Source of the DNA: Verrucomicrobiota bacterium
Lineage (GTDB): Bacteria; Verrucomicrobiota; Verrucomicrobiia; Verrucomicrobiales; DEV007
DNA: 38,753 bases
Direction of reading: 5' to 3'
Assembly: GCA_018970725.1 (NCBI GenBank)
Contig: JAGWVU010000045.1
Location: 1 to 38,753 of the forward strand
Position numbers and translations under genes: made by a program. How positions within the stretch are numbered: the stretch's first letter is position 1; each line of letters opens with the position of its first letter. The notes under the pieces were generated by a model. That model saw nothing but the letters and a program-made list of their open reading frames with translations, ran no database searches and was not told where the DNA came from. Below, one piece after another: positions 6,192 to 28,512 of the stretch.

Positions 6192-6411
6192 GGAAAACGG
6201 GCACGGCCCTGGGACCGCAACCGATTGCGTTCCGTTCTGCCGCGAAGGACTCCGTTGCCATCATGCCTGCCTCTGCACCCTTTCCCTCAATCGGCGCCGG
6301 ATGCAAGCGCGTTGCCGCCCTCCTCGCGTGCCGGGATTTGGATTGATCGAGCGCGTGTCGGCAGTTACTCTCTCCCTCCATGAGGAAAAGGTTGCGTCTA
6401 CCTTGGCAAGC

Positions 6412-7326
6412 ATGCGGGAGCTGACCCTACTGGAAGACAAGTATCCCGGCTTTACGCGCGCCCTTCCCCTGTTGGTGCTCGGTCTGTTGCTCTGGGGACA
6501 GCTGGCCCTGGCTCTGTCACCGTGGTGGAGTGATGGCTCTTACTATGACTACGGCTGGTTGGTCCCCTTTCTCGCGGGATGGTGTCTTTGGGCACGATGG
6601 GAGCGCTTGCCGCCACGGGATCGGAGCTTCCGGGACCCGGCCGGCGCCCCATGGCAAGTCGCCATCGTGGGACTCGTGCTCGTGGGTTTGGCGATGCTCC
6701 GGTTGGTCGAACGTTCCGACCCCGCCTGGCGGATTCCCATCTGGATTCATGCGCTGACCGTGGTTTTTCTTTGGCATGGCCTAGTTTACCGGGTCACCGG
6801 GCGCGCCCTGTATTTTCTGCCGGTGACCCTCCTGATGTTGACCGCGGTGCCCCTTCCCCCGTTTTTGGAGGGTGCCCTGATCCACCGGCTGACCCAGGCG
6901 GTTTTGGATTACTCGGTTCCCATCGCCAACCTCCTCGGCATCCCGGTCGCCATGGCGGGCACCGCGCTTACGGCCCACGGGCAGGTGCTGCAGATTGACG
7001 ACGGCTGCAGCGGCATCCGCTCCTTTCAGAGCCTCCTCATGATCTCGGTTTTTTTCGGCGAATTCTTTCTCCTGCGCTGGCCCCGGCGCCTCCTCATGGT
7101 GTTCACCGGCTTCGCTTCCGCCTTCCTCTTCAACGGGCTCCGCACGCTGACGCTGACCTGGATCTTTTTCCGGATGGGAGAAGCCCGATTCCACGAGTTC
7201 CACGACGGCGTGGGCGTCGTCACCTTCGTCTTGAGCGCCATCGCCACCTACCTCGCGGCGTGGAGGCTGGCGACCCCGCTCGATTCTCCACGCCCCGGAC
7301 CGGATCAGGGAAGCTCGATCCACTGA
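6412..7326 (+). CDS. Exosortase/archaeosortase family transpeptidase
   Basis: Integral inner-membrane cysteine transpeptidase expected to cleave and anchor proteins with C-terminal PEP-CTERM-type signals, commonly in bacteria that make extracellular polysaccharide. It has 304 residues with about eight hydrophobic segments. The family triad is visible: Cys199 in DDGCSGIRS, Arg244 in FNGLRT and His264 in FHDGVGVV. There is no fused EpsI-type C-terminal domain, so this is the short form. The ATG at 6412 precedes the first hydrophobic helix by about 18 residues; upstream in-frame alternatives (GTG) would add about 20 residues of low-complexity sequence. The gene is convergent with the MEKHLA gene and their 3' ends overlap by 22 nt. 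No PEP-CTERM substrate gene is present in the window. Confidence 0.88.
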   Translation: MRELTLLEDKYPGFTRALPLLVLGLLLWGQLALALSPWWSDGSYYDYGWLVPFLAGWCLWARWERLPPRDRSFRDPAGAPWQVAIVGLVLVGLAMLRLVERSDPAWRIPIWIHALTVVFLWHGLVYRVTGRALYFLPVTLLMLTAVPLPPFLEGALIHRLTQAVLDYSVPIANLLGIPVAMAGTALTAHGQVLQIDDGCSGIRSFQSLLMISVFFGEFFLLRWPRRLLMVFTGFASAFLFNGLRTLTLTWIFFRMGEARFHEFHDGVGVVTFVLSAIATYLAAWRLATPLDSPRPGPDQGSSIH

Positions 7327-11001: not shown

Positions 11002-13587
11002 TCACGAGCCGGGGATTTTCACCGGAGCCACCGGTTCATCAACGCTTTCATTGATCGGTGCTCCCGAGGGATCGATGAGCCGGGCGGTGACAAAAATGGT
11101 GAGATTACGCTTGGCATGCACCTCCGATTTGCTGCGGAAGAGGAATCCCGCCACCGGAAGATCACCGAGAATCGGCAGCTTGTCTTCGACATGCTGGATG
11201 TCCTCCCGGATCAATCCGCCGACCGCCACGGTTTGGCCGTCCCAGATGGTCACGTCGGTGGCGACGGAGCGCTTGGCGAAGACCGGCATCTCAATGCGGT
11301 TTTCAGTCAAAAGAACCTGAACCGGTTGACCTGCGGCGGTTCCCCCCGTGTAGATGGGGCTGCCGTAGTTGATGAACCCTTCGAACTCGACGACTTCAGG
11401 CTCCAGCCGGAGATCGATCGTGAAGCCATCAGGGCCGATGGTCGGCGTGGCTTGGAGGGTGACGCCCACATTCCGGGTCTCGAACGCGGTGGGGTTGGCC
11501 GGGGTCACCGGGAACGACTGAACAGATGGAGCGATACCGCCTCCCTGCTGACCGCCACCTTGGTTGCCGAACTGCTGGGGGATTTCCGGCGGATCATATT
11601 CGGTCGGGTAAATGAACTCTCGAATCACCTCGAGCTTGGCGATCTGCCCGCTCCGGGCCACCACGCTGGGCGCGGACATCAGGTCGGTTCCCTTGCTTTG
11701 GGAGATCGCCCGGAGAACCACCTGAAACTGCGGATCTGTGAAAACACCCGCCATCGACAAGATCGCGGGGGCCAAGGTGGACTGGCCGGCGATCGTGTTG
11801 GTCAGGAGAGCGTCCACCGAGTTCCGGTTCACCGCGAGCGCGCCGCTGCGAAGCCCTGAAGTGAGAGGATCACCGCCGAACGGTTGCTGGCTGATCGGCT
11901 CCACAAAGGACCAATCCTGAGCCTGCTGCTGCCCCCGCGTGCTCCCGATGGTCCCACCGCCCATGAACACCCGGTCGGAACCGGGAACGTTGGCCTTGCC
12001 GAGCAACCAATCGAAACCGAAGGTGTCGTCGTTGTCCTGACCGATTTCCACGAACTTAGACGTGATGAAGATCTGCTTCTGGACGTCTTCCTTCAAAGAG
12101 TCCACATAGGCTTCCACGAGGTCAAGATTGGCTTGGGTGTTCCGGACGATCAGCTGGCTGTTGGTGGCGTTGTAGATCGCGCTGCTGTCGGGGGGGAAAG
12201 TCACCCCCACACCCTCGAGAACTTCCTTCGCGGAGCGTTTCGGTTGAAGGCCCGCCGCACCAGCGGCCGGGGTCGAACCCAGGTTGGCGAAGGGATCACC
12301 GGAGAGTTGTGCCCCGCCACCACCGCCACCGCTAGCCCCGGCGGTGAGAAACGACGGCGGGACCCGGAACACTTTGGTGGCCAGATCGGCATTCTGCTCC
12401 GTGAGCGGGATGATCTTGACCGCATTCGGCTCCACTTTGAACTTGAGCCGGGCTTTTTCGGTCACATACCGGAGGGCGTCGACCAGCGGAATCTGGGTAA
12501 CCTTCAGGTCAATCAGGGTGGTGGATCCGGCACCTCCACCCATCGAAGCCGCTGGGGCGGTGGGATCATCGAAACCGGGAACACCCCCAGTCGGAGCAAC
12601 CGGTGCGGCGGCAGCGCCGCCGGAGCTCGGAGGATCGATGATGTTCACCCCTTTCTTCGCGGGATCGGGCTCCAGATCATCGAGCTCACGGCTCTTCTCC
12701 CGGAGGAACTCGATCGCATCCGCAAACGGTGTCTGCGCAAACTCGATCTCCGGAATGATGATGTTCTTGAGCTTCTCGTTGATGTAACCGATCCCGTCCT
12801 GCGTGAGAGTCGGCCCTGCGGTCTCACCGGGAGGATCCACCGAGAACCGCGGCGGCTTCAGCTCCCACTGTTCCTCGACCTGACGGAGGAAGGTCGACCG
12901 GGTCTGATCGTAGGCGGTATCGTAGTAAATCCGGCGATGTTTCTCCACATCCTCCAAACCCCGGCGCGCCGCCGAGTTGTAGGGATCATAATTCAACGCT
13001 TCATGGTAACGCCTCTCGGCCCCGTCGTAATCGCCGATCCGGATGTGGCTGGAGGCCTCTTTTAGTGCGGTCTCCACGCGCTTGACGCGGGCGATGTGTT
13101 CCGGCGTGATGGCCTGGGGATAGATTTCGGGATCGTTAAGATCCTCCAAAAGGCGCCGGGCTTCGAGGTTCTCGGGATCGATCGCCGGATCGAGAACCGC
13201 CTCGATGATCTGCATCGCCTCGGTGTATTGCCCTTCTTCAGCCCGTTGGCGGGCCAGCAAAACGCTGCCGTCGGCAAATTGCTGGGTGTATTCCACGCGC
13301 CTGGACTCGACCACTGGTGCCTCGGGGAGCAAGTCCAACGCCTTCTTGAGTTCGCTCACCGCCCCGGCGTAGTCCTTATCCGCGAGCATCCGCTGCCCGC
13401 GGAGGGCGGCTTCGTCCGCCTTGGCCACCATTTCCTGACGCCGCGCCACGGCCTTCCGCACCGCCTCGGGCACATCCTGGGCGTTCCCGCCCGGGGCAAA
13501 CGCGCTCAGGAAGGCGAGGAAAAGAAGGGCGCCACAACCCCTTTGAAGGCCTTGCCACTTTCCTAAATTCGCGAAGGGACGGATCAT
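11002..13587 (-). CDS. Amuc_1098-type type IV pilus-associated outer-membrane secretin
   Basis: Outer-membrane channel protein of the secretin superfamily, predicted to form the multimeric pore for a type IV pilus or type II-like system. It is 861 residues. Residues 1-36 include a hydrophobic Sec signal ending near GGNAQD. Residues 40-225 are TPR-like helices (KDYAGAVSELKKALDLLP; GDYDGAERRYHEALNYDPYNSAARRGLEDV). N-domain modules follow: about 270-410 interrupted by an Ala/Pro/Gly linker, and about 470-530 with YNATNSQLIVRNTQANLDLVEAYVDSL. The secretin beta-barrel domain occupies about 620-840, with SAPSVVARSGQIAKLEV and the signature KLPILGDLPVAGFLF. This architecture matches the verrucomicrobial Amuc_1098 family. 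No other pilus gene is present here. The start ATG follows a C/A-rich leader without a Shine-Dalgarno. Confidence 0.9.
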   Translation of the reverse strand: MIRPFANLGKWQGLQRGCGALLFLAFLSAFAPGGNAQDVPEAVRKAVARRQEMVAKADEAALRGQRMLADKDYAGAVSELKKALDLLPEAPVVESRRVEYTQQFADGSVLLARQRAEEGQYTEAMQIIEAVLDPAIDPENLEARRLLEDLNDPEIYPQAITPEHIARVKRVETALKEASSHIRIGDYDGAERRYHEALNYDPYNSAARRGLEDVEKHRRIYYDTAYDQTRSTFLRQVEEQWELKPPRFSVDPPGETAGPTLTQDGIGYINEKLKNIIIPEIEFAQTPFADAIEFLREKSRELDDLEPDPAKKGVNIIDPPSSGGAAAAPVAPTGGVPGFDDPTAPAASMGGGAGSTTLIDLKVTQIPLVDALRYVTEKARLKFKVEPNAVKIIPLTEQNADLATKVFRVPPSFLTAGASGGGGGGAQLSGDPFANLGSTPAAGAAGLQPKRSAKEVLEGVGVTFPPDSSAIYNATNSQLIVRNTQANLDLVEAYVDSLKEDVQKQIFITSKFVEIGQDNDDTFGFDWLLGKANVPGSDRVFMGGGTIGSTRGQQQAQDWSFVEPISQQPFGGDPLTSGLRSGALAVNRNSVDALLTNTIAGQSTLAPAILSMAGVFTDPQFQVVLRAISQSKGTDLMSAPSVVARSGQIAKLEVIREFIYPTEYDPPEIPQQFGNQGGGQQGGGIAPSVQSFPVTPANPTAFETRNVGVTLQATPTIGPDGFTIDLRLEPEVVEFEGFINYGSPIYTGGTAAGQPVQVLLTENRIEMPVFAKRSVATDVTIWDGQTVAVGGLIREDIQHVEDKLPILGDLPVAGFLFRSKSEVHAKRNLTIFVTARLIDPSGAPINESVDEPVAPVKIPGS

Positions 13588-13817: not shown

Positions 13818-15728
13818 GTGGCAAACAGCATTTTAGAACCAGCTGACCGGCGGCCGACCGCACGCGAACGCTTTGAGCGGGTGCGGACCATGGCGTATGC
13901 CGATTCCCTCGAACCGAGCCGCCAACTGGCCGAGGAGGCGGCGCTTCTGATTCGCGCAGCCACCCCGGAGAAGCCTTTCGTGATCGGGCTGGCGACCGGG
14001 TCCTCTCCCGTCCCGTTTTATCGGGAATTGATCCGTTTGCATCGGGAGGAGGGGCTGAGCTTCCGCCACGTGGTGAGCTTCAATCTGGACGAGTATCATG
14101 GGCTGAGACGGGATCATCCGGAGAGCTACCACCGATTCATGCACGATCAGCTCTTTGACCACGTCGACATGGTTCCGGGGAACATCCATATTCCGGACGG
14201 CACGATCAGGACGGAGGACGTTTATGAATTTTGCCAGGAATACGAGCGGAAGATCGACGCATTCGGGGGAATCGACCTGCAGATTCTCGGAATCGGCCGG
14301 ACCGGTCACATCGGCTTCAATGAACCCGGCTCCGCTTTGGATTCCCCGACCCGGATGATCGCACTCGATCGATTGACGCGCCGGGACGCCGCGGCGGATT
14401 TCCTCGGGGAATCCAATGTGCCGAGATTTGCCATCACCATGGGTGTGGGGACGATCATGAAAGCGCGCCGGGTGGTTTTGCTGGCCTGGGGCGAGAACAA
14501 AGCGGAGATCCTGGCTGCGGCGGTGGAGGGTCAGGTGACCGACACGATCTCGGCCAGCTTCTTGCAGCTGCATGGCGATGCGACCTTCATTGTGGACGAA
14601 ACCGCCGCCTCTTGCCTCACGCGGAACCGCTGCCCGTGGCTGGTGGGTCCGGTCCATTGGTCTTCGGGGATGATGCGGAAGGCGGTGGTCTGGCTGGCTC
14701 GGAAGATCGGCAAGCCGGTATTGAAGCTGGTCGATGAGGATTACAATGAAAACGGGATGGCGGACGTGCTGGCGGAGCATGGCGGCGCCTATGACGTGAA
14801 CATCGGGGTGTTCAATCAGCTCCAGCATACGATCACCGGGTGGCCGGGGGGCAAGCCCGGGGCGGATGATTCCCATCGTCCTGAACGCGCCCTGCCGCTT
14901 CGCAAGCGGGTCGTGGTTTTCAGCCCGGAACCACAAGACGCGGTGGTGGCCATGGGGGGAACGCTCGAGCGACTCGTGGAACAGGGTCACGAGGTCACCC
15001 TGATCTGCCAAACCTCGGGCAACCTGCGCGTCGCGGACATGGAGGCGCGGAAGTTCGCCACGATCCTTGAAGACATCGCCAGCGGGAGCCAACCATGGCC
15101 CGAACAGCAGTCCTACGCTCGCACGATTCAAGGATTGCTTGATGAAAAGGGAGAATTCGGTGTGGACCCGTCTCCGGTCCGCCATCTGAAGGGTCTGATC
15201 CTGCGCGGCGAGGCCCGGGACGCGGCGGAAGCTTGCGGATTGGCCGAGGGAGCGATCCGCTTCCTCGACCTTCCCTTTTATGAGTCGGGCCGGTATCGGC
15301 GCTTTCATCTCCGGGCGGAGGACATTGAGGCCACGGCAACAGTGCTAGCGGAACTCCGCCCCCACCAGATCTTTGCGACCGGTGATGTAGCGGAACCGAC
15401 CTCGCTCCAAGCCCTCTGTTTCCGGGCTCTCCGTGAAGCCTGGGCCCGCGAGGGCAACGGTGAATGGGCCGGACACTGCCGGGTCTGGGTTTACCGTGGC
15501 AAGGAACGTCCGCTGGCGGACCACGAGATCGACATGGCGGTCCCGCTCAGCCCCATCCAACTCGAAAGAAAACTCAACGCCATCCGCAAGTTCCAATCCA
15601 TCCGGCAGGACGAGTGGGAGGCGGCCACCCTGAACCAGAAAAACGCCGCGAACTACGATTCCCTCGGGATGGCGGAATACGAGGCAATCGAATCCTTCCA
15701 GCGCTGGCCCTCCGCCGCCCCGAAATAA
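13818..15728 (+). CDS. nagB: Glucosamine-6-phosphate deaminase fused to a degenerate LmbE/PIG-L-like domain
   Basis: Residues about 1-320 are the deaminase/isomerase domain that converts GlcN6P to fructose-6-phosphate and ammonia: LATGSSPVPFYREL (phosphate loop), FNLDEYHGL (catalytic Asp) and GIGRTGHIGFNEPGS with His164. Residue 162 is Thr where E. coli NagB has Asp141. Residues about 360-630 resemble the LmbE/PIG-L deacetylase domain that follows NagB in Bacteroidetes-type long enzymes. Its zinc site is lost, however: the HPDD motif reads EPQD (residues 371-374), and the later HGTH-type motif reads TSLQ (528-531). The second domain is therefore probably not a hydrolase. GTG 13818 is chosen because the family-typical N-terminus TARERFERV precedes ATG 13890. 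It is convergent with the next gene at a 12-nt gap and divergent from the secretin. Confidence 0.88.
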   Translation: MANSILEPADRRPTARERFERVRTMAYADSLEPSRQLAEEAALLIRAATPEKPFVIGLATGSSPVPFYRELIRLHREEGLSFRHVVSFNLDEYHGLRRDHPESYHRFMHDQLFDHVDMVPGNIHIPDGTIRTEDVYEFCQEYERKIDAFGGIDLQILGIGRTGHIGFNEPGSALDSPTRMIALDRLTRRDAAADFLGESNVPRFAITMGVGTIMKARRVVLLAWGENKAEILAAAVEGQVTDTISASFLQLHGDATFIVDETAASCLTRNRCPWLVGPVHWSSGMMRKAVVWLARKIGKPVLKLVDEDYNENGMADVLAEHGGAYDVNIGVFNQLQHTITGWPGGKPGADDSHRPERALPLRKRVVVFSPEPQDAVVAMGGTLERLVEQGHEVTLICQTSGNLRVADMEARKFATILEDIASGSQPWPEQQSYARTIQGLLDEKGEFGVDPSPVRHLKGLILRGEARDAAEACGLAEGAIRFLDLPFYESGRYRRFHLRAEDIEATATVLAELRPHQIFATGDVAEPTSLQALCFRALREAWAREGNGEWAGHCRVWVYRGKERPLADHEIDMAVPLSPIQLERKLNAIRKFQSIRQDEWEAATLNQKNAANYDSLGMAEYEAIESFQRWPSAAPK

Positions 15729-15740
15729 CCCGGAACCCGC

Positions 15741-16130
15741 TCAAACGGAACCTTGCCCCGGGTTCGGGCCCGCTGGCCCGGATTCACCGGGGCGCGGCGG
15801 ATGGACTTTGGAAAGCAGATCCCTCGCTGCCTTCGCTCCGGCTTCGGTGCCCCGGGCGCGCGACTCCCTCACGTCATCGGACGCGAGGTCCTTGGCCAGG
15901 GCGGAAGCGAAGGCCGCACTAAAGGAAAGGCTGTAGGACAGATCCTTGATGATCTCCTCAAAGACTTCCCGGGCGCGCGGGGCGGCCTGCTGCGCTGCGG
16001 AACGGGCTTCCTCGGCCCCTCGCTGCCAAGTCTCGTGAATCGCCTCGCGCAATTTTTCGACGGCTTTTCCATACCCCTCGTCGCCCCCGGAGGTGTGTCG
16101 GTCGTAATTCGGATTCGGTTCGTCGTTCAT
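15741..16130 (-). CDS. Small helical protein of unknown function
   Basis: A 129-residue protein I do not recognise. It has a polar N-terminus, a long amphipathic helical core rich in Ala, Glu and Arg (about residues 20-105) and a Pro/Gly-rich tail. No signal peptide or membrane span is visible. It could be a soluble coiled-coil or membrane-surface protein. ATG 16130 is the only sensible start before the helical core; the leader is A/T-rich without a Shine-Dalgarno. It lies divergent from the PKS-NRPS gene across a 313-nt gap and convergent with nagB. Codon use is in line with neighbours, which supports a real gene, but the function is open. Confidence 0.6.
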   Translation of the reverse strand: MNDEPNPNYDRHTSGGDEGYGKAVEKLREAIHETWQRGAEEARSAAQQAAPRAREVFEEIIKDLSYSLSFSAAFASALAKDLASDDVRESRARGTEAGAKAARDLLSKVHPPRPGESGPAGPNPGQGSV

Positions 16131-16443
16131 CAAATAAAATCGCACCGTCAGGGCGGCGCGCAATGCTCGAAACTCAATAGTCCTTCGATTTCGTCGATTC
16201 TTTTCTTCCAACCAATCTAGAAATGCCCACGGTTTTCAACACAACCGCCTGCGGTGCCTCCATTCCCGGCCCCGCCCCCCTAATCCGATGCCGCCGAGTC
16301 GCGAAGGCCGGATTTTCAAATTTGACTCCGCCGGAAAACCCCGTGTAAGTCCCGCTTTCCGGGTCAAGGGTTTCGTCCCCGTAGTCACGGGTCCGGACCC
16401 CGGTTGCCGGGAACGTAAGGAATAAGATCTGCAAGCTGCACGC
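16131..16443 (+). promoter_or_regulatory. Divergent upstream region of the PKS-NRPS gene with a 12-bp palindrome
   Basis: This 313-nt gap separates the small helical gene (minus) from the megasynthase (plus) and holds no convincing gene. It contains a perfect 12-bp palindrome GGGTCCGGACCC (16389-16400), immediately followed by a CCCGG-TTG-CCGGG hairpin (16398-16410), about 35-55 nt before the PKS ATG. A TTGACT box at 16322-16327 is followed 18 nt later by only a poor -10 (TAAGTC). In-frame TAA at 16423-16425 limits the PKS start to ATG 16444. The palindrome is a candidate operator; no binding protein can be named. Confidence 0.3.
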
Positions 16444-19400
16444 ATGGATACGAATCGGAACGGGTCCTCCCAGCGGGAGCCATTGGCTATCGTAGGTATC
16501 GGTTGTCGCTTCCCCGGAGGCGTCGATGACACCGAGTCCTTCTGGAAGCTTTTGAAGGAGGGCCGTTCGGGCATCATCGAGGTTCCGGCCAACCGGTGGA
16601 ATCGCGAGCGCTTCTACCATCCGGACACTTCCATCCCGAGGAAGATGCACACCAAGTGGGGCGGTTTTGTCGACAACCTCGATCATTTCGACGCCCAATT
16701 CTGGGGAATCTCACCGCGGGAGGCCCTTCGGATGGACCCACAACAGCGCTGGCTGCTGGAATGTTCCTGGGAGGCCTTGGAAAACGCCGGTTACCGTCCC
16801 TCCAAACTCGCGGGCACCCGCACGGGAGTTTACGTTGGCATCGCATCCAACGACTACGCGCAGGTTCAAATGACCAGCCCGGAGGATGTCGATGTGCACA
16901 CCAACTCCGGTGCCACGCTTTCGATCGCCTCGAACCGGATTGCCTATCTCCTCGACCTCAAGGGACCGGCCCTGTCGGTCGACACCGCCTGTTCCTCGGC
17001 TCTCGTGGCGATCAATCTGGGCTGCAAGGACATGTGGTCTGGAGAGATCGATCACGCGTTGGTGGGCGGCGTGAACGCGCTCTTGACGCCGGACACGTCG
17101 ATCGGCTTCTCCAAGGCCACCATGCTTTCGCCCAGCGGGCAGTGCTTTGCCTTCGATGACCGGGCCAACGGTTACGTCCGGGGCGAGGGCGCGGGCATGA
17201 TGTTCCTCGTCCCCCTCTCCAAAGCTCTGGCCAACGGGGATCGGATTTACGCCACGGTGCGCGCCGCGGTCATCAATCAGGACGGCCATACCTCCTCCAT
17301 GACCGTCCCCGGCCAGGAAACCCAGGCGGCGATGCTCATCGAGGCCTATCAACAGGCCGGATTTCCTCCCTCAAGGGTCACCTACATGGAGGCCCACGGC
17401 ACCGGCACCCCGGTGGGGGATCCCATCGAAACCAACGCGCTCGGGGAAGTTCTCTCCCAAGGGCGCGACAAGAAGAACAAGTGCCTGATCGGTTCGGTCA
17501 AAACGAACATCGGTCACCTGGAGTCCGGCTCCGGCGCCGCCGGCATGGTGAAGGCCGCCCTGGTCCTGCACAAGGGGATGGTGCCGCCCAACCTGAATTT
17601 CAAAAAGCCGAACCCGAACATCGACTTCGACGGCCTGAAGCTCAAGGTCGTTACTGAGCTCACGCCACTCAAGACACCGGATGGCTCCCTCCCGGTCGCT
17701 TCCGTTAATTCCTTTGGATTCGGCGGCACGAACGCCCACATCGTTCTCGAGGCCCCTCCTCTCCCCACGCCCCTTGAAAAACCGGCGGATGCGGCCGCCC
17801 GCCCCCTCCTGCTTCCCATCTCCGGCAAGGACGAAGGAACTTTGCGTGCTTACGCCGACCGCTACCGCCGTTATCTCGAGGACGAATCGATCGACCTCGC
17901 CGAGGTCTGTTTTTCGGCGGGCGCACGGAAGGAACACCATGACAAGCGGGCGGTCGTGATGGGCCGGACCGCAGCGGAATTGCGGGATCGGCTTCGTCAG
18001 GTGGCGAAGGGTCACGAGGATGTGCCGGGCGTGTTTTTCGGTTCGGCGGCCGACGAGTCCCATCCCACGGTCTTCGTCTACACCGGCCAAGGCGCCCAAT
18101 GGTGGAAGATGGGACAGGAGCTGTTGCGGACCGAACCCGTCTTTCGCCGGACCATCGAGGAGATCGACGCCGAGGTGCGCAAACTGGCCGACTGGTCGCT
18201 CCTCGAGGAGATGACCAAGCCCAGTGAGCAGTCCTCCAACATCAACCGGACTTACATCGCCCAGCCGGCCATCTTCGCCCTGCAAGTGGCGCTCACCGAG
18301 CTTTGGAAGAGCTGGGGCGTGGTGCCCCACAAGGTGGTGGGACACTCCGTGGGTGAAGTCGCCGCCGCCTACGCGGCCGGGGTCTACACGCTGTCCGATG
18401 CCGTGAAGGTGATCGTCCATCGGTCACGGCTTCAGGAGCAGACCGGTGGCGATGGCAACAAGGGAAGGATGTATGCGGTCGGACTGAGCGAATCCGAAGC
18501 GCGGGAATGGCTCGCGGGCTACGAGGGGGTGATCGAAGTTGCGGTGGTGAACAGCCCGACGCTGGTGACCCTCGCCGGCGACCGGATTCCGCTGGAGGAG
18601 TTGTCGGCGAAATTGGAAGCGGCCGGGAAATTCGTCCGGATGCTGCGGATCAACTACGCGTTCCACACCTTCCAGATGATGCCGATCAAGGATGAGTTGC
18701 TGGAAGCTCTCGGCGACATCCGCCCGCGGCCCACCACGATTCCCTACATCTCCACCGTCACCGGTGGCGTGATGCGCGGGGAAGAGCTGGATGCGCATTA
18801 TTGGTGGCGCAACGTGCGCGAGGCGGTGCTTTTCGCTCCGGCGGTGATGAATTTGATCCGGGGCGGCGAGCGCCTCTTCCTCGAGATCGGGCCACACCCC
18901 GCCCTGCAGGGGCCGATCAACGAGTGCCTTCAGGAACAGAAACGGAAGGGGGCGGTCTTTCATTCCCTGTCCCGCAAATCCGTCGAGATCGAGGAGATGC
19001 TGGGCAACTTCGCCAGGCTTCATCTCTACGGCCGCGAAGTCGACTGGCGCGCGGTGAACCAAGCCGCGGGACAGTTCCTTCCCCAGCCGTCCTATCCGTG
19101 GAACCGTGAACGCTTCTGGCTCGAGTCCGAGGAAGGCACCCATCTCCGCTGCAGCCCGACGGTTCACCCGCTGCTGGGCGTCCGGATCGGGGCCACCAAG
19201 CCTACTTTTGAGTTTTACCTCGACCCCCGTCTCTTCCCCTATCTCGAAGATCACCGCTTTTGGGACTCCATCATTTTCCCGGCGGCAGGTTACGGCGAGA
19301 TTGGTTTGGCCCTGTGCCGGGAGCTATACCCGGGTGAGGACTATTGCGTCGAGGAACTGGAGGCGAAAAAGGCGCTGTTCGTCAGTGAATCCAAAGTTCC

Positions 19401-22400
19401 CACGGTCCGCGTCGTCTTCGACGAAGGAGACCGCAGCTTTTCGGTCTACAGCAACCCCTCGAAGAACAGTCTCAAGGAATGGGAACTGAACGCTCAGGGC
19501 CGACTTCGGAAACTCGGTCAACCGGTTCCCGCCCAAGCGGACTTCGCGGCGATCAAGGACCGGATGGTCAAGCACTTCGATCACGAGGCGTACTACAAGG
19601 ATTACCTCGACGCCGGTTACCAGTTTGGCCCCAATTTCCAGCACCTGCAGAATGTCTGGCGCCGGTCACACGAGTCCCTTGCCGAGATCGTGGTCCCCGC
19701 TTCCATCCAAGCCGATCTCAAGGGTTACCGGTTTCATCCGGCAGTCCTCGACGCCCTATTCCACGGGGTGAAGGGGGCTCAAGTGGTGCCTGACGACGCC
19801 AAGGGCTCGGACTATTTCTATCTTCCAGCCTCGGTGGGAAGGATCCGGATCTTCGAGGAACCGATCCCAACAACCCTCTGGGCGCACTCGCGGATCCATT
19901 TCGACGACGGTGAATCGCTGATTTCCAACATCACGGTCTTTAACGAGCACGGTCATCAGATCGCGGAGATCGTCGATTTCCGGGTGGACCGGGTGGATCA
20001 GAAGGATGAAAAGGAGGAGGAACTCGACAACTCCTTCTACCAATTCCGTTGGGAAGCCCGGCGGCTCAAGGGCAGTCGCACCGCGGGTGAGGTGGCCTTC
20101 GCCCCAATCCCCACCGTGGTCAAGGAAGTGCGGGGAGCGATGCCCTTGGTCTATGAGCGGCACGGACTCAAGGCTTATTACGAGCGTTTCGAGTCGCGCC
20201 TCGACAAGGCCGTGGAGCAATTCGTGATCAATGCCTTCCTCGACCTCGGATGGAGCCCGGTCGTCGGAGCGTCGGTCGAACTGGAGGCGTTCCTCAACTC
20301 CCTGGGCATTCTTCCAACCCATCGCCGGTTGACAAACGCCCATCTGGACACCCTGGCCGCCGCCGGTTGGTTGAAGGCCGCCGGACCCGGGAATTGGGTG
20401 GTGGTGAAGGCTCCGGAGCCTTGCGACGTCTTGGCCGAACTTCGCGCCCTCATCGCGGAGTTCCCTCAGTTCGCCAGCGAGGCCGAGCTGCAACTTGTGA
20501 CCGGCCCGGCCCTAGCCGCGGTGCTCACCGGGGAAGCCGATCCGGTGGAGATGCTTTTCCCCGGGGGCAAGTCGATCGATGCCCTGACCACCTTCTATCG
20601 CCAGGGCGGCGATTTCTCAGCAAACAACGAGTTGATCGGTTTCGCCATCCAACAGCTCATTTCCACCCTCCCCGCGCGGCGTGATCTGCGGATTCTCGAA
20701 GTGGGCGCCGGAACCGGCTCGCTGACGCGGACCGTCCTTCCGGTGCTCCCGGCGCATCGGGCGGAATACACCTTCACCGACACCAGCCCGGCGTTTCTCG
20801 CCGACGCGAAGCGGCAGTTCTTGGACTATCCGTTCGTCGAATACGCCACCTTCGATATCGAGAAGAGCCCGTCCGCCCAAGGGATCGATGTGGCGGCCTA
20901 TGACCTGATTCTGGCCACGAATGTGATCCACGCGACCTCGGACCTGCGGAACACCTTGGCGAATCTGCAGTCCTGTCTCGCTCCGAATGGGGTTCTCATG
21001 TTCCTCGAAGTGACGAACGAACGGGTGACACTGAACAACGTTTTCGGTCTTCTCAAGGGTTGGTGGTATTATTCGGACACCGAATTGCGCCCCAACTCGG
21101 CCCTGCTCCCCCGCGAACGCTGGTTGTCCCTGCTTCAGGAGATGGGCTTCCGGGACGTCGACTTTTTCGTCAGTTCGGAGCGGAGCAACGAATGCCAGCA
21201 GGCGGTCTTCCTCGCCCGTGCTCCCGGGTTGACGCCCGCGGCTCCGGCTGAGCCGGCGGTGGAACCGGCCACCGCGGAGACAGTGGTCTGGCTCAAGCCC
21301 CGGAGCGGAACAGAAGCTCTCCAGACCGTCCTTCAGACCGCCGGACGCAAGGTGGTCACGGTCCGTCCAGGCGCGGCCTTCGTCATCGGCGGGGCCTCCG
21401 ATTTCACTCTCGATCCCCTCTCCAAGGAGCATTGGGTGCAACTCTTCCAGGAATTGGGATCCGCCGGTCACCGGGTCACCACCTTCGTCCATGGATGGAC
21501 GCTCGATGATCCCGGAACAGAAATCTCACTGGACGCTCTTCGCGAGTCCCAGGTCCATGGAACCCACTCGCTGCGGGTGCTCATCCACGCGATGCACCAG
21601 CTGAAGCCGAGCCCTGCCCCGAAATTTTATGTGGTGACCCGGGGAAGGCTCTCGATCGCCGGAGAGCCGCTGCACTCGATCAGCACCGCGCCCCTCACCG
21701 GGTTTTGCCGGGTGGCCAACAACGAGCACCCGGATTGGCCCGTCACCACGGTGGATCTGGACGCTTCCCCGAATGCTTTCGAGGCCGAGGATCTCGCTGC
21801 CGAGATTCTGGGGCCGGATCTCGAGTTCGAGATCGCCTATCGCAGCCAGGTCCGCCACGTCAATCGTCTCCATCGGGTCAAGGCGGAGGAGGTTCCGCTG
21901 CGGCGCACGGATGCGGTCCTGCCCGACGGGACCGTGCTTCCGTATCGGTTGGAGATCGACAAGCCCGGTGTCCTGCAAAACCTTTCCCTCAATGTCACGC
22001 CGCGGATCGAGCCTGGTCCCGGTGAAATCGAGGTTCAGGTCAAAGCGGGTGGCATCAATTTCCGGGACGTCATGAAGGCGCTCGGCATGTATCCGGGGAA
22101 TCCGGTCGATATCCGTTGGTTTGGCGACGACGTGGCCGGAACCGTGGTGCGGGTGGGGGATGGGGTCACCGACCTGAGGCCTGGCGACAACGTGGTCGGC
22201 ATGGCTCCATATGCGTTCCGGAGTTACGCCACGGTGCACCGGGATCTGGTGTTCCGTAAGCCCGATCACCTAAGCTTTGAAGAGGCGGCCACGCTCCCAA
22301 CCGTCTTCCTGACCAGTCACTATGCCCTCGTCCATCTTGCCCGGATGGAGAAAGGAGAAAGAGTTTTGATCCACGCAGGCACCGGAGGCGTTGGTCAGGC

Positions 22401-25400
22401 GGCCATCCAAATCGCGCAAAACCTCGGCCTCGAGATCTTCTCGACTGCGGGGAGCGACGAGAAGCGTCAATTGCTCCGGGACATGGGGGTCCACCATGTC
22501 ATGAATTCGCGGACGCTGGACTTCGCGGACGAGGTGATGCGGATCACCAACGGAGAAGGGGTCGATTGCGTTCTCAACTCGCTCGCCGGGGACTTTATTC
22601 CGAAGAGCTTCGGTTGCTTGCGCCGCTTCGGCCGGTTCATCGAGATCGGCAAGATCGACGTCTACAACAACTCGAAGTTCGGTCTCGAGATGTTGAAGAA
22701 CAACATTTCTTACTTCGTGGTCGACCTTGCCCAGCATCTGGAGTCCAAGCCGGCCTTCATCGCATCGATGATGCGCGAGCTTGAGGGGCACCTCTTCGCC
22801 AAGACGTATCAGGCCCTTCCCCACCGCGTTTTCCCGATCACCGAGGTGGTCGATGCATTCCGTTACATGGCGCAGGGCAAGCACGTCGGGAAGAACGTGT
22901 TGACCTTCGACGTCCCGTCCATCCCCATCGCTCCCTGCACTCAGGAAGGTCATCTTTTCCGTCCCGACCGCACCTATCTCATCACCGGAGGCGCGGGCGG
23001 CTTTGGTTTCGAACTGGCCAAATGGATGGGCCGGAACGGGGCCCGCCATCTCTGCCTCGTCTCGCGCAGCGGGCCCAAGGATCCGGCGGCGGGCGAGATC
23101 GCCGCGATGCGAGCCGAAGGCATCGAGGTCACCGATGCCCGCGCCAGCGTCACGGACCCGGCGGCCATGCGCCAGATCGTCGCCACGATCCAAGCCGGTC
23201 CCGCCCCACTGGCCGGAGTCATCCACGGGGCCATGGTCATCAACGACCTGGACATCATCGATCTCGACGAGGAGGGATTCGACCGGGTCGTGCACCCCAA
23301 AATGCTGGGTGCGTGGATCCTCCATCATCTGACGCTCGAGATCCCGCTCGATCTGTTTGTTTCCTTCTCCTCGTTCTCCACGGTGATGGGAGCGGTGCGG
23401 CAGTCGAATTACAACGCCGGCAACGCGTTTCTCGACGCCATCGCCCAGCATCGCCGTGCCCTCGGCTTGCCCGGCTTGACGTTCAACTGGGGCGCGCTCA
23501 AGGGGGCCGGCTTCGTCGAGCGGAACGAAAAGACCGAGCAGTATCTCGAGCTGCTCGGGCTCTCCACTTATGACATGCGGGAGACCCTCAGCGTCTTCCA
23601 ACGGTTCATGATCCGGGATGTCGCCAACCTGGCGGCTTCGAGGATCGATTGGAGTTCCCTGTCGCGTTTCGCCGCCCTGATCGCGTCGAAGACCTACTCA
23701 CATGTCGTCGGTCAGGATGGCGAAGGCGAGGGCGGTGCCATCCGCAGCCAGATCCTCAATGCGGCGGCCGACGCCCGGCAGGGGTTGATGGAGAATTTCC
23801 TCGCCGAGCAAGTGGCTGGGGTCTTCGGGACCGATGTCTCAAAGATCAACAAGGATGTGCCGTTGAACCAGCTCGGTCTCGATTCCCTCATGGCGATCGA
23901 GCTCATGAACCGCGTCGAATCGCAACTCGGGATCTCGGTCCCGATGGGCGCGGTCCTCAACGGCCCCAACGTCCGCGAGCTTTCGGTTCCGATCCTCGAG
24001 TCGTTGCTCGCCAGCGCCGGCGACGAATTGGCGGCGGGCGGCGGCTCCGCGTCCCCGGGGGCACCCACGGCCTCGCTGCCACCACTCGTGATCTCCGGCA
24101 AGGATCGTTCCGAGTTTCCGCTGACCGAGGGACAGAAGGCCCTGTGGTTCCTCCATCAGCTGGCCCCGCAGTCCCCCGCTTACAACCTGGTGTTCAGTTC
24201 CAAGATCACGCCCTTGGTCGATATCCCGACCATGCAGGAGGCGTTCAAGGGACTCTTCGAGCGGCATCCGATGCTCGATGTCACTTTCCACACGGTCAAC
24301 GGCAGCCCGGTGCAGCGAATTCGCAAGGGCCGGAGCGTCGATTTCCGGGAGCACGACGCCACGCACCTTTCCGAGGCGGAGATCAAGCAGTTGGTGATGC
24401 AACACGCCAACCAGCCGTTCAATCTGGAAAATGGTCCCGTCGTGCGGCTGGAATTGTTCCGCACCGCGGATAACGCGCACATCACCCTGCTCTCGATCCA
24501 CCACATCATCTCCGATGCGTGGTCCATCACGTTGGTCATGCGCGACCTGATCGAGAGCTACTTCTCCCGCAAGGTGGGCAGGATGCCCGAGTGGGAGGAT
24601 GTAGCGACCCGTTACCACGATTTCGTGACCTGGGAGCAGGTCCATCTTTCCGGGGACTCCGGGGCCCGCATGCTCGACTACTGGAAGGGTCAGCTCGAGG
24701 GAGCACCGCTGGTGCTCGACCTTCCCACGGATCGTCCGAGACCTCCTGTCCAGACATTCAACGGTGCGGCCCACGGGTTCAAACTCGACAAGAAGCTGAC
24801 CCAAGCCGTCGTCAAACTGGCTGAAACGGAGAACGTCACGCTCTTTACGACGTTGCTTTCCGCCTTCGACTTCTTGCTCCACCGTTATTGCAAGCAGGAA
24901 GACTTGATCGTCGGTGTGCCGCTCGCCGGACGGAACCAATCGGAACTTCACAGCGTCGTCGGTTACTTCATCAACCCGGTTCCGGTGCGCAGCCGGGTCA
25001 CGGGCGATGCCAGCTTCCGTGATTTCCTCGCGCAGACCGGTCAAAACGTGATCGGGGCCTTGGAGAACCAGCATTATCCCTTGTCCAAGCTGGTGGATCA
25101 ACTCCATGTGCCGAGGGATCCGAGCCGCTCACCGGTGTTCCAGGTCTCGTTCTCGATGGAACGGATCCCGGGGGTCGATGAACAGGGGATCGCGGTGTTC
25201 CTCATCGGCCAGGGAGGCCACAAGTTCCACATCGGGGACATGACCGTGGAGACGGTGGATCTCACCCTCCGCCAGGCGCAGTTCGAGATCACCTTGGTGG
25301 TGGAGGAAGCCGGAGGCGAACTCTACGGGTGCTGGCAATACAACGCCGACCTCTTCGATCAAGCCACGATTGCCTCCCTGAACGACCTGTATGCCCAAGT

Positions 25401-28400
25401 CCTCCGCGAGGTGACGTCGGATCCGGCCAAGCCGTTGTCCGCCATCAACCTGCTGACCGCTTCCGAACAAGGCAAGATCCTTGAGGCTTGGAACGCCACC
25501 GAAGCCGATTACCCGGGCGACGAGTTGCTTCACGACCTGGTCGCCGGGCAGGTCGTCGCCACTCCGGACAAGATCGCGGTTCGTTGCGGCGGGGACACCC
25601 TCACCTTCAATCAACTCGATCGCAAGGCGGACGGTCTGGCCCAGTGTCTGGCGGAGGCCGGCGTGGGACCGGACCAACCTGTGGCCCTGCTCGCGGATCG
25701 CTCCTGCGCCATGGTGGTCGGGACGCTCGGGATTCTCAAGGCGGGTGGTTGTTACGTCCCGATGGATCCGGATTTCCCGGCGCAACGGCTCGAGATGATG
25801 CTGGCCGACGCCAAACCGAAGGTTCTCGTCACCCAACGCCGCCTCGTCAACCAGTTGCCCAAGGGGAGCTGGAAGGTTGTGTGTCTTGAAGACATCGAGG
25901 CCACCGACAGCGGCCCGGTCGTCAAGGGACTTCGCCCGGAATCCCTCGCCTACATCATTTACACTTCCGGTTCCACCGGAGTTCCCAAGGGTGTGGAGAT
26001 CTCCCATCAGGCGGCAGTCAATTTCCTCTGCTCGATGCGCGAGACGCCGGGTCTTGGGTCGAATGATCGCCTTCTGGCCGTCACGACCCTTAGCTTCGAC
26101 ATCTCTTTGCTCGAGATTTACCTGCCCTTGCTCACCGGGGCCGAGTGCGTCATCGCGAGCCGGGATGAAGTCAAGGATGGTCGACACCTCGGGCACATGC
26201 TCGATGAGTTCGACATCACCGTTATGCAGGCCACTCCGGCCACGTGGCAAATGCTGCTGGATGGCGGGTGGACGGGAAAGAGCGACCTCCGGATTTTCTC
26301 CGGCGGAGAGCCGCTGGGCCGTCGCCTCGCGGACCAACTGCTTCCCGCTTGCCGGGAGTTGTGGAATCTTTATGGGCCGACCGAGACCACGGTTTGGTCC
26401 ACCTGCACCCGGGTTTCTCCCGGGAGCGGCACCATCCATATCGGCAAACCGATCGCGAACACGACGATTTACCTCCTCGATGAGCATCTCATGCCCGTCC
26501 CGGCCGGATTCGTCGGCGACTTGTTCATTGGTGGCGATGGGTTGGCCAGGGGCTACCACCAGCAACCCGCCCTCACCGCTGAGAAGTTCGTTCAGGTCAC
26601 CTTGCCGAACGGAAAGACCGAGCGGCTTTACAAGACAGGTGACCTCGCCCGTTGGAACCGGGATGGCAACCTCGAGTGTCTCGGCCGGGCCGACTTCCAG
26701 ATCAAGCTTCGCGGTGTCCGGATGGAGTTGGATGATATCGAGTCCCATCTCTTCTCCCACAGTCGGGTCCGCCAGGCGGTGGTCGCCAAGCGCGACGATC
26801 TTCCCGGAGGCCCGAATCTGGTCGCCTACGTCATTCCCGACGGTCCGTCGGAGGGCCTGATTCCCGATCTCCGGTCCCATCTGGCGGAGCGTCTCCCGGA
26901 GAGCATGCGCCCCGCGTTTTACTGTATCGTCGATTCCTTCCCGCTCACGCCGAACCGCAAGGTGGACCGGAAGCGTCTTCCCGCTCCGAAGATCGATCGT
27001 TCCGGGTTGGAAACCGCCTATCTGGCTCCGACCACGGCCAGCGAGTTCCTCCTCTCGGACATCTTCGAGGAGGCGTTCGGTGCCAAGGTGGGCATCCGGG
27101 ACAACTTCTTCGAAATGGGGGGTGACTCCCTCCTCGCGGTCAGGATCCTCGCCCATGCCTCGGAGGCCTTCAACCGGCACATCCCGGTCGAAGCCTTCCT
27201 TCGTTACCCGACGATCGAGCAACTTGCCGATTATCTGCACCGCACCGAGGACCGCGAGGATCTTGAGGCGGGGCTCCCGGCCGGGGCGATCGACCTCGAT
27301 GCGATCGCGGCCAGCGGCCACATTGAATTGGAGTTTGTCGATGACGGGGACGTGCTTCCCAAAGTTGATGCCGTGGCTCTCGCCTGTATCCCGGACGCCT
27401 TCGTGGCCGTCAGTGGTTTGGGCAGGGACGAACTCATCGCCCGCTGGTTCCGGCACCAACCGCGCCTCTCCAGCATTTACGAGCTGCCGACCGGCAAGAT
27501 CGGCCTGATCGTCCTTCCAATGTTCGAGCTCGATATCTTCAAGGACGAGGCCGGCCTGCAGCGGTCCATCGTGCTCGCCTTGGAAATGGCCAGCCGGATG
27601 GGGGCCAGAACCGTCTCCCTCACCGGAATGCTGCCGAGCGCCACGGAAGATGGCGTGCGGGTCAGTGATTGGGTCAAGGGGCGCAAGAAGTTCCCCGCCA
27701 TCACCACCGGCGATGCCACGCGGACCGCGACCATCATCAAGACCATCGAGGGCACCCTCGAGAAGACCGGGCGCAAGTTCGCCAACGAATCTGTCGCCTT
27801 CATCGGTCTGAAGTCGATCGGCAAGGCAGCCCTCCGGCTCGCCCTCGAGGTTCTGCCCCACCCGCGCGAGATCCTTCTCGCGGACCCCTACCTCAAGGAG
27901 TCCGCCCTCACGGCCTTCCGCGACGAGATCGTCAAGCGCGGCTTCAAGGGGCGGATTTCGGTCCACCCCAACGGCGGCGGCATTCCTGCTCCGGTCTACG
28001 ATGCTTCGTTTGTCGTCGGCACCACCAGCATTCCCGGAATTCTCGATATTGGCCGCCTGGCTCCGGGGACCATCGTGGTCGACTACAGTTTCCCCTCCTC
28101 CTTCCGACTCCACGAAGCGGTTCGCCGCCTTGAAAGCGATGGTGACATTCTTTTCACCACGGGCGGCGAGCTTCATTTGGCGAAGAACGTCATCAAGGAG
28201 ACGATTTATCTCCCCACCGCCTCCCAGGAGTTGGCGGGAGATTTCGATACCCGCGCCATGTCCATGCTGGCCGGACGGCACCCGCACGAGATCACCGGAT
28301 GTATCGTCGTCAGCCTCCTCACCGGGATGGTCAAGGACGTGAAACCCACGCTCGGACCGGTCGCCCCGGAAGACGTTCTGGCGCATTACCAGTTCCTCGC

Positions 28401-28512
28401 CCAACAAGGGTTCAGACCGGCGCCGTTGCAGATGCATCGCTATCGCATCAGCGATGCGAAGGCCGCCGAATTCGGCGCCCGGGAATGGGATCGTGGCAGT
28501 GTGGTGGGATAG
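16444..28512 (+). CDS. Hybrid type I PKS-NRPS megasynthase with a terminal AAR-like reductase domain
   Basis: A single 4,022-residue polypeptide. Domain order with approximate residues: KS 11-435, AT 540-860, DH 908-1185, C-methyltransferase 1250-1590, structural psiKR 1625-1830, ER 1840-2160, KR 2175-2385, ACP 2440-2520, condensation 2555-2990, adenylation 3025-3505, PCP 3525-3600, acyl-ACP-reductase-like 3620-4005. All carrier and catalytic landmarks appear intact. The expected product is a reduced, C-methylated polyketide acyl chain joined to an amino acid, probably glycine, and released reductively. There is no loading module, thioesterase or docking domain. With one fully reducing PKS module, iteration is likely, as in fungal HR-PKS-NRPS enzymes; this is inference. 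The start is ATG 16444, since an in-frame TAA lies 19 nt upstream and the KS begins at residue 11. The gene stands alone; both downstream and upstream neighbours are on the other strand. Confidence 0.95.
16474..23997 (+). other. Fully reducing, methylating PKS module: KS-AT-DH-cMT-psiKR-ER-KR-ACP
   Basis: KS has Cys183 in DTACSS, His318 in [12 protein letters not shown] and His358 in NIGHLES, so it should condense. AT has Ser635 in GHSVGE and a YAFH motif, closer to malonyl-type HAFH than methylmalonyl-type YASH, so malonyl-CoA is the likely extender. DH has His937 in an HxxxDxxxxP variant (usual HxxxGxxxxP) and Asp1103 in [11 protein letters not shown]. The methyltransferase has [10 protein letters not shown] at about 1417-1426 and NVIHAT. 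ER has the NADPH loop [11 protein letters not shown] at 1977-1987. KR has TGGAGGFG at 2181-2188, Ser2310 and Tyr2323 in [12 protein letters not shown], and IND in place of LDD, suggesting a B-type ketoreductase. The ACP has Ser2481 in GLDSLM. Branches would derive from SAM, not from methylmalonyl-CoA. Confidence 0.9.
24106..27240 (+). other. NRPS module C-A-PCP, adenylation code close to glycine
   Basis: The condensation domain starts at [13 protein letters not shown] (residue 2558) and has HHIISDAW with His2686, His2687 and Asp2691; the usual DG is DA. The adenylation domain has A3 [11 protein letters not shown] (3173-3183), A4 FDIS, A5 YGPTET and A10 NRKVDRK with Lys3506. By alignment to the GrsA positions I read Asp3219, Ile3220, Leu3223, Gln3262, Phe3285, Gly3287, Leu3309, Val3317, Trp3318 and Lys3506, i.e. 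DILQFGLVWK. This agrees at 8 of 10 positions with the established glycine code DILQLGLIWK. The PCP has Ser3562 in GGDSLLAVR. No epimerisation, cyclisation or oxidation domain is present. Confidence 0.85.
27300..28509 (+). other. C-terminal domain resembling long-chain acyl-ACP reductase (AAR, COG5322 type)
   Basis: From about residue 3620 to the end, the sequence follows cyanobacterial AAR block by block: [13 protein letters not shown] against [25 protein letters not shown] (TTGDAT at 3754-3759) against TTGNTHTAYV, then a Rossmann strand with GLKSIG (3788-3793), then [12 protein letters not shown] and a TTGGELH segment against [20 protein letters not shown] places Cys3953 on the AAR cysteine that accepts the acyl group (Cys294 in Synechococcus elongatus), and GFRPAPL aligns with GFQPLAL. 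AAR reduces acyl-ACP thioesters to fatty aldehydes with NADPH, so a carrier-bound thioester from the adjacent PCP is a natural in-cis substrate. The second glycine of the nucleotide loop is Lys3790, which may alter cofactor binding. I compared from memory of the AAR sequence, without a structural check. Confidence 0.75.

Follow-up and report, generated by a model that had tools for sequence, protein, structure and literature searches.

A long NagB of Verrucomicrobiota with a PIG-L/LmbE-type domain that lacks the full zinc motif

Locus and domain layout

The window, that is the whole stretch of 38,753 nucleotides of verrucomicrobial DNA that was analysed, carries a gene for a long NagB between a gene for a secretin-domain protein and, on the other side, a small ORF and a hybrid PKS-NRPS gene (Table 1). 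The gene product combines a glucosamine-6-phosphate deaminase (NagB) with a domain of the PIG-L/LmbE type. It belongs to the long NagBs, as judged by a match of 755.4 bits to the NCBIfam model NF002557 (glucosamine-6-phosphate deaminase-like protein; cut-off 384), and it has the two-domain plan, the length and the RTGH variant of the NagB active-site loop that are found in this family (NF002557, PRK02122). Relatives from the same genus align across the start region, in agreement with the GTG start. Residue numbers used here are those of P0001, the form that begins at ATG 13890; adding 24 gives the numbering of the original prediction made from this DNA.

Both halves of the protein are recognised by family models. 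The TIGR00502 (nagB) match scores 269 bits against a cut-off of 236.9, and the PF02585 (PIG-L) match 35.1 bits against a gathering cut-off of 28.2; on P0001, Pfam places the NagB fold at residues 10-226 and PIG-L at 343-498. The linker between the two domains is conserved in both clades considered below, with and without the zinc site. The structure of the window protein is predicted with mean pLDDT 88.8 and pTM 0.81. When the model was compared by VIA-align, the best NagB matches of its first domain were the E. coli enzyme (Z 38.1) and the monomeric 2bkv (Z 37.2), and the second domain has a predicted PIG-L fold, with a Z of 22.2 to BshB (6p2t; rmsd 3.1, 204 residues aligned), of about 21 to diacetylchitobiose deacetylase and of 21.8 to GalB (5cgz). 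A model of a Splendidivirga relative with an intact zinc site (pLDDT 86.4) gave Z values of about 36 to NagB, 19.7 to BshB and about 19 to diacetylchitobiose deacetylase.

Table 1. Features of the long NagB gene and its neighbours in the window (residues numbered as in P0001)
Feature	Position	Strand	Remarks
Secretin-domain protein with TPR repeats	11002..13587	-	PF00263; transcribed away from the NagB gene, which it also adjoins in two genomes of the genus
Long NagB gene	13818..15728	+	GTG start (supported by relatives); alternative ATG 13890; NF002557 755 bits
NagB deaminase domain	13890..14624	+	Residues 1-245; TIGR00502 score, Z 37-38 to NagB structures, residue counts
Linker region	14625..14900	+	Residues 246-337; alignment and column statistics
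PIG-L/LmbE-like domain without the full zinc motif	14901..15725	+	Residues 338-612; PF02585; Z about 22 to BshB
EPQD (for HPDD)	14928..14939	+	By sequence: H of ligand 1 now E, D of the general base now Q; D of ligand 2 retained
L379	15024..15026	+	L in 83/83 degenerate rows; mostly I or T in intact rows
GRYRRF 467-472	15288..15305	+	R470 and F472 in 83/83 degenerate rows, R468 in 81/83, Y469 in 79/83
T497	15378..15380	+	76/83 degenerate rows; A in 86/86 intact rows
TSLQ (for HGTH)	15399..15410	+	By sequence: H of ligand 3 now Q; S505 (78/83) belongs to the clade signature
Small ORF without Pfam match	15741..16211	-	Conserved in the genus
Hybrid PKS-NRPS gene	16444..28512	+	First 519 codons recur at the corresponding place in two genomes of the genus

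Replacement of the zinc site

In a review of the superfamily, the enzymes are described by the motif HXD1D2+H, in which H1, D2 and the last H are zinc ligands and D1 is the general base, and the D51A variant of rat PIG-L is given as having no measurable activity (PMC4101496). The window protein does not have this motif. The original prediction had read EPQD at residues 371-374 and TSLQ at 528-531 in the places of HPDD and HGTH, and both replacements were confirmed, the numbering being that of the GTG start. Its further statement that all visible zinc motifs are replaced went too far: as read from the sequence, ligands 1 and 3 and the general base are gone (the third ligand position is now Q507), but ligand 2, the aspartate of EPQD (D350), is kept.

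The motif columns were read in 169 rows (168 distinct, L079 and L193 being one protein), which comprise the window copy, relatives from genome searches and a sample formed by the best 80 named loci. The expectation that long NagBs carry HPDD and a later HGTH was borne out: HPDDD occurs in 86 of the 169 rows, with HGTH in 85 of these and NGTH in one. The alignment of homologues, which had been suggested for mapping the loss of ligands, also placed the change in a wider setting, since it is shared by 83 of the 169 rows (82 distinct), here called degenerate, and is thus not a quirk of one genome; four of the 83 are partial matches (L114, L197, L198 and L199). Both same-genus genomes have an identical EPQD, followed by TSLQ in one and SSLQ in the other. 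As the same-genus genomes share the change and all 83 degenerate rows are without HPDD, chance can be excluded.

At position 347, all 86 intact rows have H, while 82 of the degenerate ones have E and the remaining one has D. The intact rows show no variation in the base at 349, in D350 and D351 or in the ligand at 507, and 85 of the 86 have H at 504. In the 83 degenerate rows, the residue at 349 varies (Q, S, A, H, L, T, M, G, Y), and L044 alone has D there; position 350 holds D in 75 rows and E, H or N in the remaining eight; position 504 is S in 66; and the residues at 507 are Q, A, S, P, T and G, H occurring in L052 alone. From the published mechanisms, it is very likely that the domain no longer acts as a usual zinc deacetylase. 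The fold predicted by the model is like that of the LmbE-like/PIG-L zinc deacetylases MshB, BshB and diacetylchitobiose deacetylase (Z 17.7-22.2), but the domain of the window protein keeps one of their three metal ligands and has residues new to its clade in the pocket loops. Annotation would readily credit the organism with a deacetylase that is probably absent here, because the family models match both halves.

Taxonomic distribution and trees

Among the best 80 named loci, the six degenerate rows (L078, L079, L080, L081, L100 and L114) all have Verrucomicrobiota titles, and the other degenerate rows come from the genus, family, order and class of the window. The 74 named intact rows of the same sample are spread over 61 Bacteroidota, 7 Planctomycetota, 3 Balneolota, one Ignavibacteriota, one Gemmatimonadota and one with a Flexibacter title for which the look-up gave no phylum. 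Intact long NagBs are also present in the window's own class (12 rows). The intact NF002557 members in these phyla and in some genomes of the window's class have HPDDD and HGTH, in contrast to EPQD and TSLQ in the window. One genome (G159) has both types, a degenerate and an intact long NagB (L037 and L076).

When a tree was built from 71 degenerate rows and 40 of 84 intact ones, with the motif columns omitted, a single branch split the two types with support 100. In a more careful tree of 24 and 20 rows, from which the GRYRRF columns were omitted as well, the split had support 100/100 and was present in 200 of 200 bootstrap trees; both trees were computed under LG+G4, without a mixture model. 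The tree of the NagB domain alone is weaker, with the degenerate rows on one side of a branch supported at 63 and the intact rows not forming one group. All trees are unrooted, and the midpoint used for drawing the tree of 71 and 40 rows falls inside the degenerate rows. We infer that the change of the zinc site is a loss and not a gain, a direction that rests on knowledge from outside the trees, since the LmbE-like enzymes covered in the review share the HXD1D2+H motif (PMC4101496).

One degenerate-type protein, L079 (identical to L193, from genome G084 of the window's order), comes from a metagenome-assembled genome titled Akkermansia muciniphila HRSG-H1-bin-188. This title is probably wrong, because the protein groups with family f3 and not with the short NagBs of family f2.

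The deaminase half and its short relatives

The residues D67, H140 and E145, which correspond to the catalytic D, H and E of NagB, are invariant among the rows that span them. The aspartate D141 of E. coli NagB is absent; T138 occupies its position in the window protein, and T, N or S is found there in all long NagB rows that cover it. The threonine is no mark of an inactive enzyme, since the 2bkv NagB, the monomeric NagB of B. subtilis, has N at this place. The 2bkv protein is 42% identical to the NagB domain, is alike in fold and has the GIGR[N/T]GHIGFNEP loop; it differs in being only 242 residues long, without a C-terminal domain. In some long NagBs of Flavobacterium and Polaribacter (L116, L119, L121, L127, L133 and L137), the NagB loop reads GIGGNGHIGFNES and the proline after the catalytic E is changed.

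Short NagBs without a PIG-L domain occur among the relatives as well. In the tree of the NagB domain, 10 of 19 short NagBs (groups f2 and f6, taken as Akkermansia-type) have the RTGH loop and form a group of their own among the long NagBs, and the other 9 fall outside the long-NagB grouping. Where exactly the Akkermansia-type proteins belong among the long ones, and thereby their descent from the degenerate clade, is poorly resolved in this tree. The NagB of Akkermansia muciniphila (Amuc_1822) is likewise short, and its published description reports an active deaminase that is unaffected by GlcNAc6P (PMC5902328). As Akkermansia-type NagBs are without the PIG-L domain and the A. muciniphila enzyme is reported to be active, the domain does not seem to be indispensable everywhere. 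The NagB half of the window protein is therefore expected to work, in a family in which relatives' NagB can work without the extra domain.

Selection on the degenerate domain

The original prediction took the joint loss of the metal sites in a preserved scaffold as a sign that the domain was kept as a putative regulatory or sugar-binding module and is not decaying. This claim stood in part. The split of the two types on one branch, the predicted PIG-L fold, the lack of early stops and the low dN/dS speak for a joint loss with a preserved scaffold and little decay. Among all 169 matches, stops occur in four rows only and at query position 609-610, which is the natural end, so that none of the 83 degenerate matches, four of them partial, has a stop elsewhere. 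In the PIG-L part, dN/dS is 0.036-0.075 in 6 of 10 close degenerate pairs (the other 4 are saturated at synonymous sites) and 0.23-0.25 in two intact pairs, all being rough values from the simple NG86 method. Within the window's genus, dN is lower in the PIG-L part than in the NagB domain in all three pairs (0.055 versus 0.070, 0.101 versus 0.130 and 0.102 versus 0.108).

Other measures speak against the claim. In the remaining 7 of the 10 degenerate pairs, as in both intact pairs, dN is higher in the PIG-L part than in the NagB domain. The domain is also more variable than in the intact clade: its mean column entropy is 1.67 bits in degenerate rows and 1.31 bits in intact ones, and columns conserved to at least 95% number 43 of 269 versus 76 of 268, which indicates a less constrained domain in the degenerate clade. 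The NagB domain is not less constrained there (1.04 versus 1.18 bits). A stretch from HxSQKD to REFWQR, kept in the intact rows, is mostly lost in the window protein, and a C-terminal stretch is shortened in the window protein and in L078.

One may therefore ask if the domain is on its way to being lost, leaving a short NagB as in the Akkermansia-type relatives. The raised entropy, the higher dN in most degenerate pairs, the shortened C-terminal stretch and the grouping of the short NagBs among the long ones, unsettled as their place is, would be consistent with such a decay. We nevertheless consider it very improbable, given the low dN/dS in close pairs, the absence of internal stops and the new, near-invariant signature of the clade that is described below.

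A new signature in the old pocket

Signature positions were defined as those where one residue reaches 90% or more among the degenerate rows but stays under 60% among the intact ones. Twelve such positions lie in the domain (347, 379, 410, 431, 468, 469, 470, 472, 497, 505, 546 and 590), of which 8 fall in four pocket loops that make up 42 of 268 columns (hypergeometric p 6e-5, a descriptive value only, as the rows are related and the loops, those after parallel strands in the model, were chosen by the analyst). In the same test, 8 of 30 positions conserved only in the intact clade (p 0.07) and 11 of 40 shared positions (p 0.03) fall in these loops. The segment FYESGRYR had originally been listed among the well-kept parts of the fold. 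This is true of FY, which is common to both types, whereas G-R-Y-R-x-F marks the degenerate clade and is seldom seen in intact relatives. Since the signature is near-invariant in the pocket loops, the pocket appears to have been replaced by another conserved set of residues and not merely released from constraint.

We lean, with modest confidence, towards a clade-wide pseudo-deacetylase with a rebuilt pocket, in which a ligand would be bound without hydrolysis and the deaminase would be tuned or stabilised. According to this model, the first zinc histidine would have become E347, and the near-fixed G-R-Y-R-x-F, T497, S505 and L379 around it would mark a pocket that was rebuilt and not abandoned. 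The domain would then bind a small ligand, by descent perhaps an amino sugar or a sugar phosphate, without hydrolysing it, and the ligand-bound domain may tune or stabilise the fused deaminase. A ligand pocket is favoured because the new signature sits in the loops of the old one. Ligand binding together with a regulatory effect on NagB is the best-supported guess, and its main rival is a scaffold.

As a scaffold, the domain would only keep NagB folded, soluble or in its oligomeric state, with its pocket closed by a salt bridge between E347 and an arginine. The new invariant set combines a carboxylate at 347 with R468 and R470, in loops that lie to one side of the sheet in the model, the linker shows conservation with and without the zinc site, and the positions of the general base and the third ligand drift freely, all of which would suit this function. 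A filler, however, would not obviously need T497, S505, L379, Y469 and F472 to be near-fixed, and we regard the scaffold as rather unlikely.

It is also conceivable that the pocket has acquired a new chemistry, either through Mg, Ca or Mn held by E347 and D350 or through metal-free catalysis by S505, T497 and the arginines. A weak metal site of another kind could indeed be formed by E347 and D350: all 83 degenerate rows have D, E, H or N at 350, each of them capable of binding metal, and E or D at 347. Moreover, GalB, which is titled a hydratase, matches the fold (see above), and so the fold can serve other reactions. Yet neither the base nor the third ligand position is conserved across the clade, which would be unusual for an active site and makes this alternative improbable.

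Returning to the rebuilt, non-hydrolysing pocket, one may speculate a little further. In a broad group of Verrucomicrobiota, the deacetylase domain may have turned into a sensor pocket by which NagB follows an amino-sugar metabolite, in place of the classical GlcNAc6P site of NagB; we put this forward as a tentative and rather doubtful possibility. Whatever its function, the family offers a clean natural contrast between an intact and a replaced pocket on one scaffold, in the case of G159 even within one genome, and through this contrast the function of the additional domain of long NagBs becomes directly testable. In the open-licence PMC literature we found no paper on this role.

Genome setting

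Both same-genus genomes share with the window the gene order Rho, secretin, long NagB, small ORF, PKS-NRPS. No nag operon is seen around the long NagB in the window's genus, where these genes are its neighbours, and none of the window's neighbour genes was found in the six context stretches from beyond the genus, out of eight stretches fetched in total.

The window genome has a NagA above the cut-off (272 bits). A NagA-like gene adjoins a second, distant NagB (30-32% identity) in the same genome (G000:C34:30558-32176), and the sole other PIG-L gene found there (L001:1483-2301) has an intact HPDD. With NagA, the NagA-like gene and this other intact PIG-L gene at hand, deacetylation of GlcNAc is probably covered elsewhere in the window genome. 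A lack of GlmS, which would force NagB to run in reverse, was considered and rejected for the window genome, in which GlmS is present (775 bits); GlmS exceeds the cut-off in 18 of 20 genomes, the exceptions being G002, which is 81% complete, and G309.

The co-occurrence with NagA, considered because the intact domain might replace NagA, was scored by the best TIGR00221 match at E <=1e-18, a limit chosen by the analyst, leaving out G159, which has both types and no strong match. By this limit, NagA is matched in 52 of the 60 genomes that have the degenerate type alone. For the intact type, the count is 5 of 10 among genomes of the window's class that lack the degenerate type, and 8 of 14 in other phyla, these 14 being a sample of the 74 named intact loci. 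The resulting comparison (52/60 versus 13/24, Fisher p 0.003) is between related genomes, with one of the 52 matches partial (G301) and many below the family cut-off. When the curated cut-off is applied, the figures become 25 of 60, 0 of 10 and 8 of 14, respectively.

Two further genes of the window may be mentioned. An exosortase gene of the EpsH type lies at 6301-7326 on the forward strand. The PKS-NRPS downstream of the long NagB is a protein of 4022 residues in which Pfam domains occur in the order KS, AT, DH, MT, ER, KR, ACP, C and A, an order that resembles that of fungal highly reducing PKS-NRPS hybrids. Its MT region gives a weak match to HTH_51 below the cut-off, and the A domain is followed by some 500 residues in which a second carrier domain may lie.
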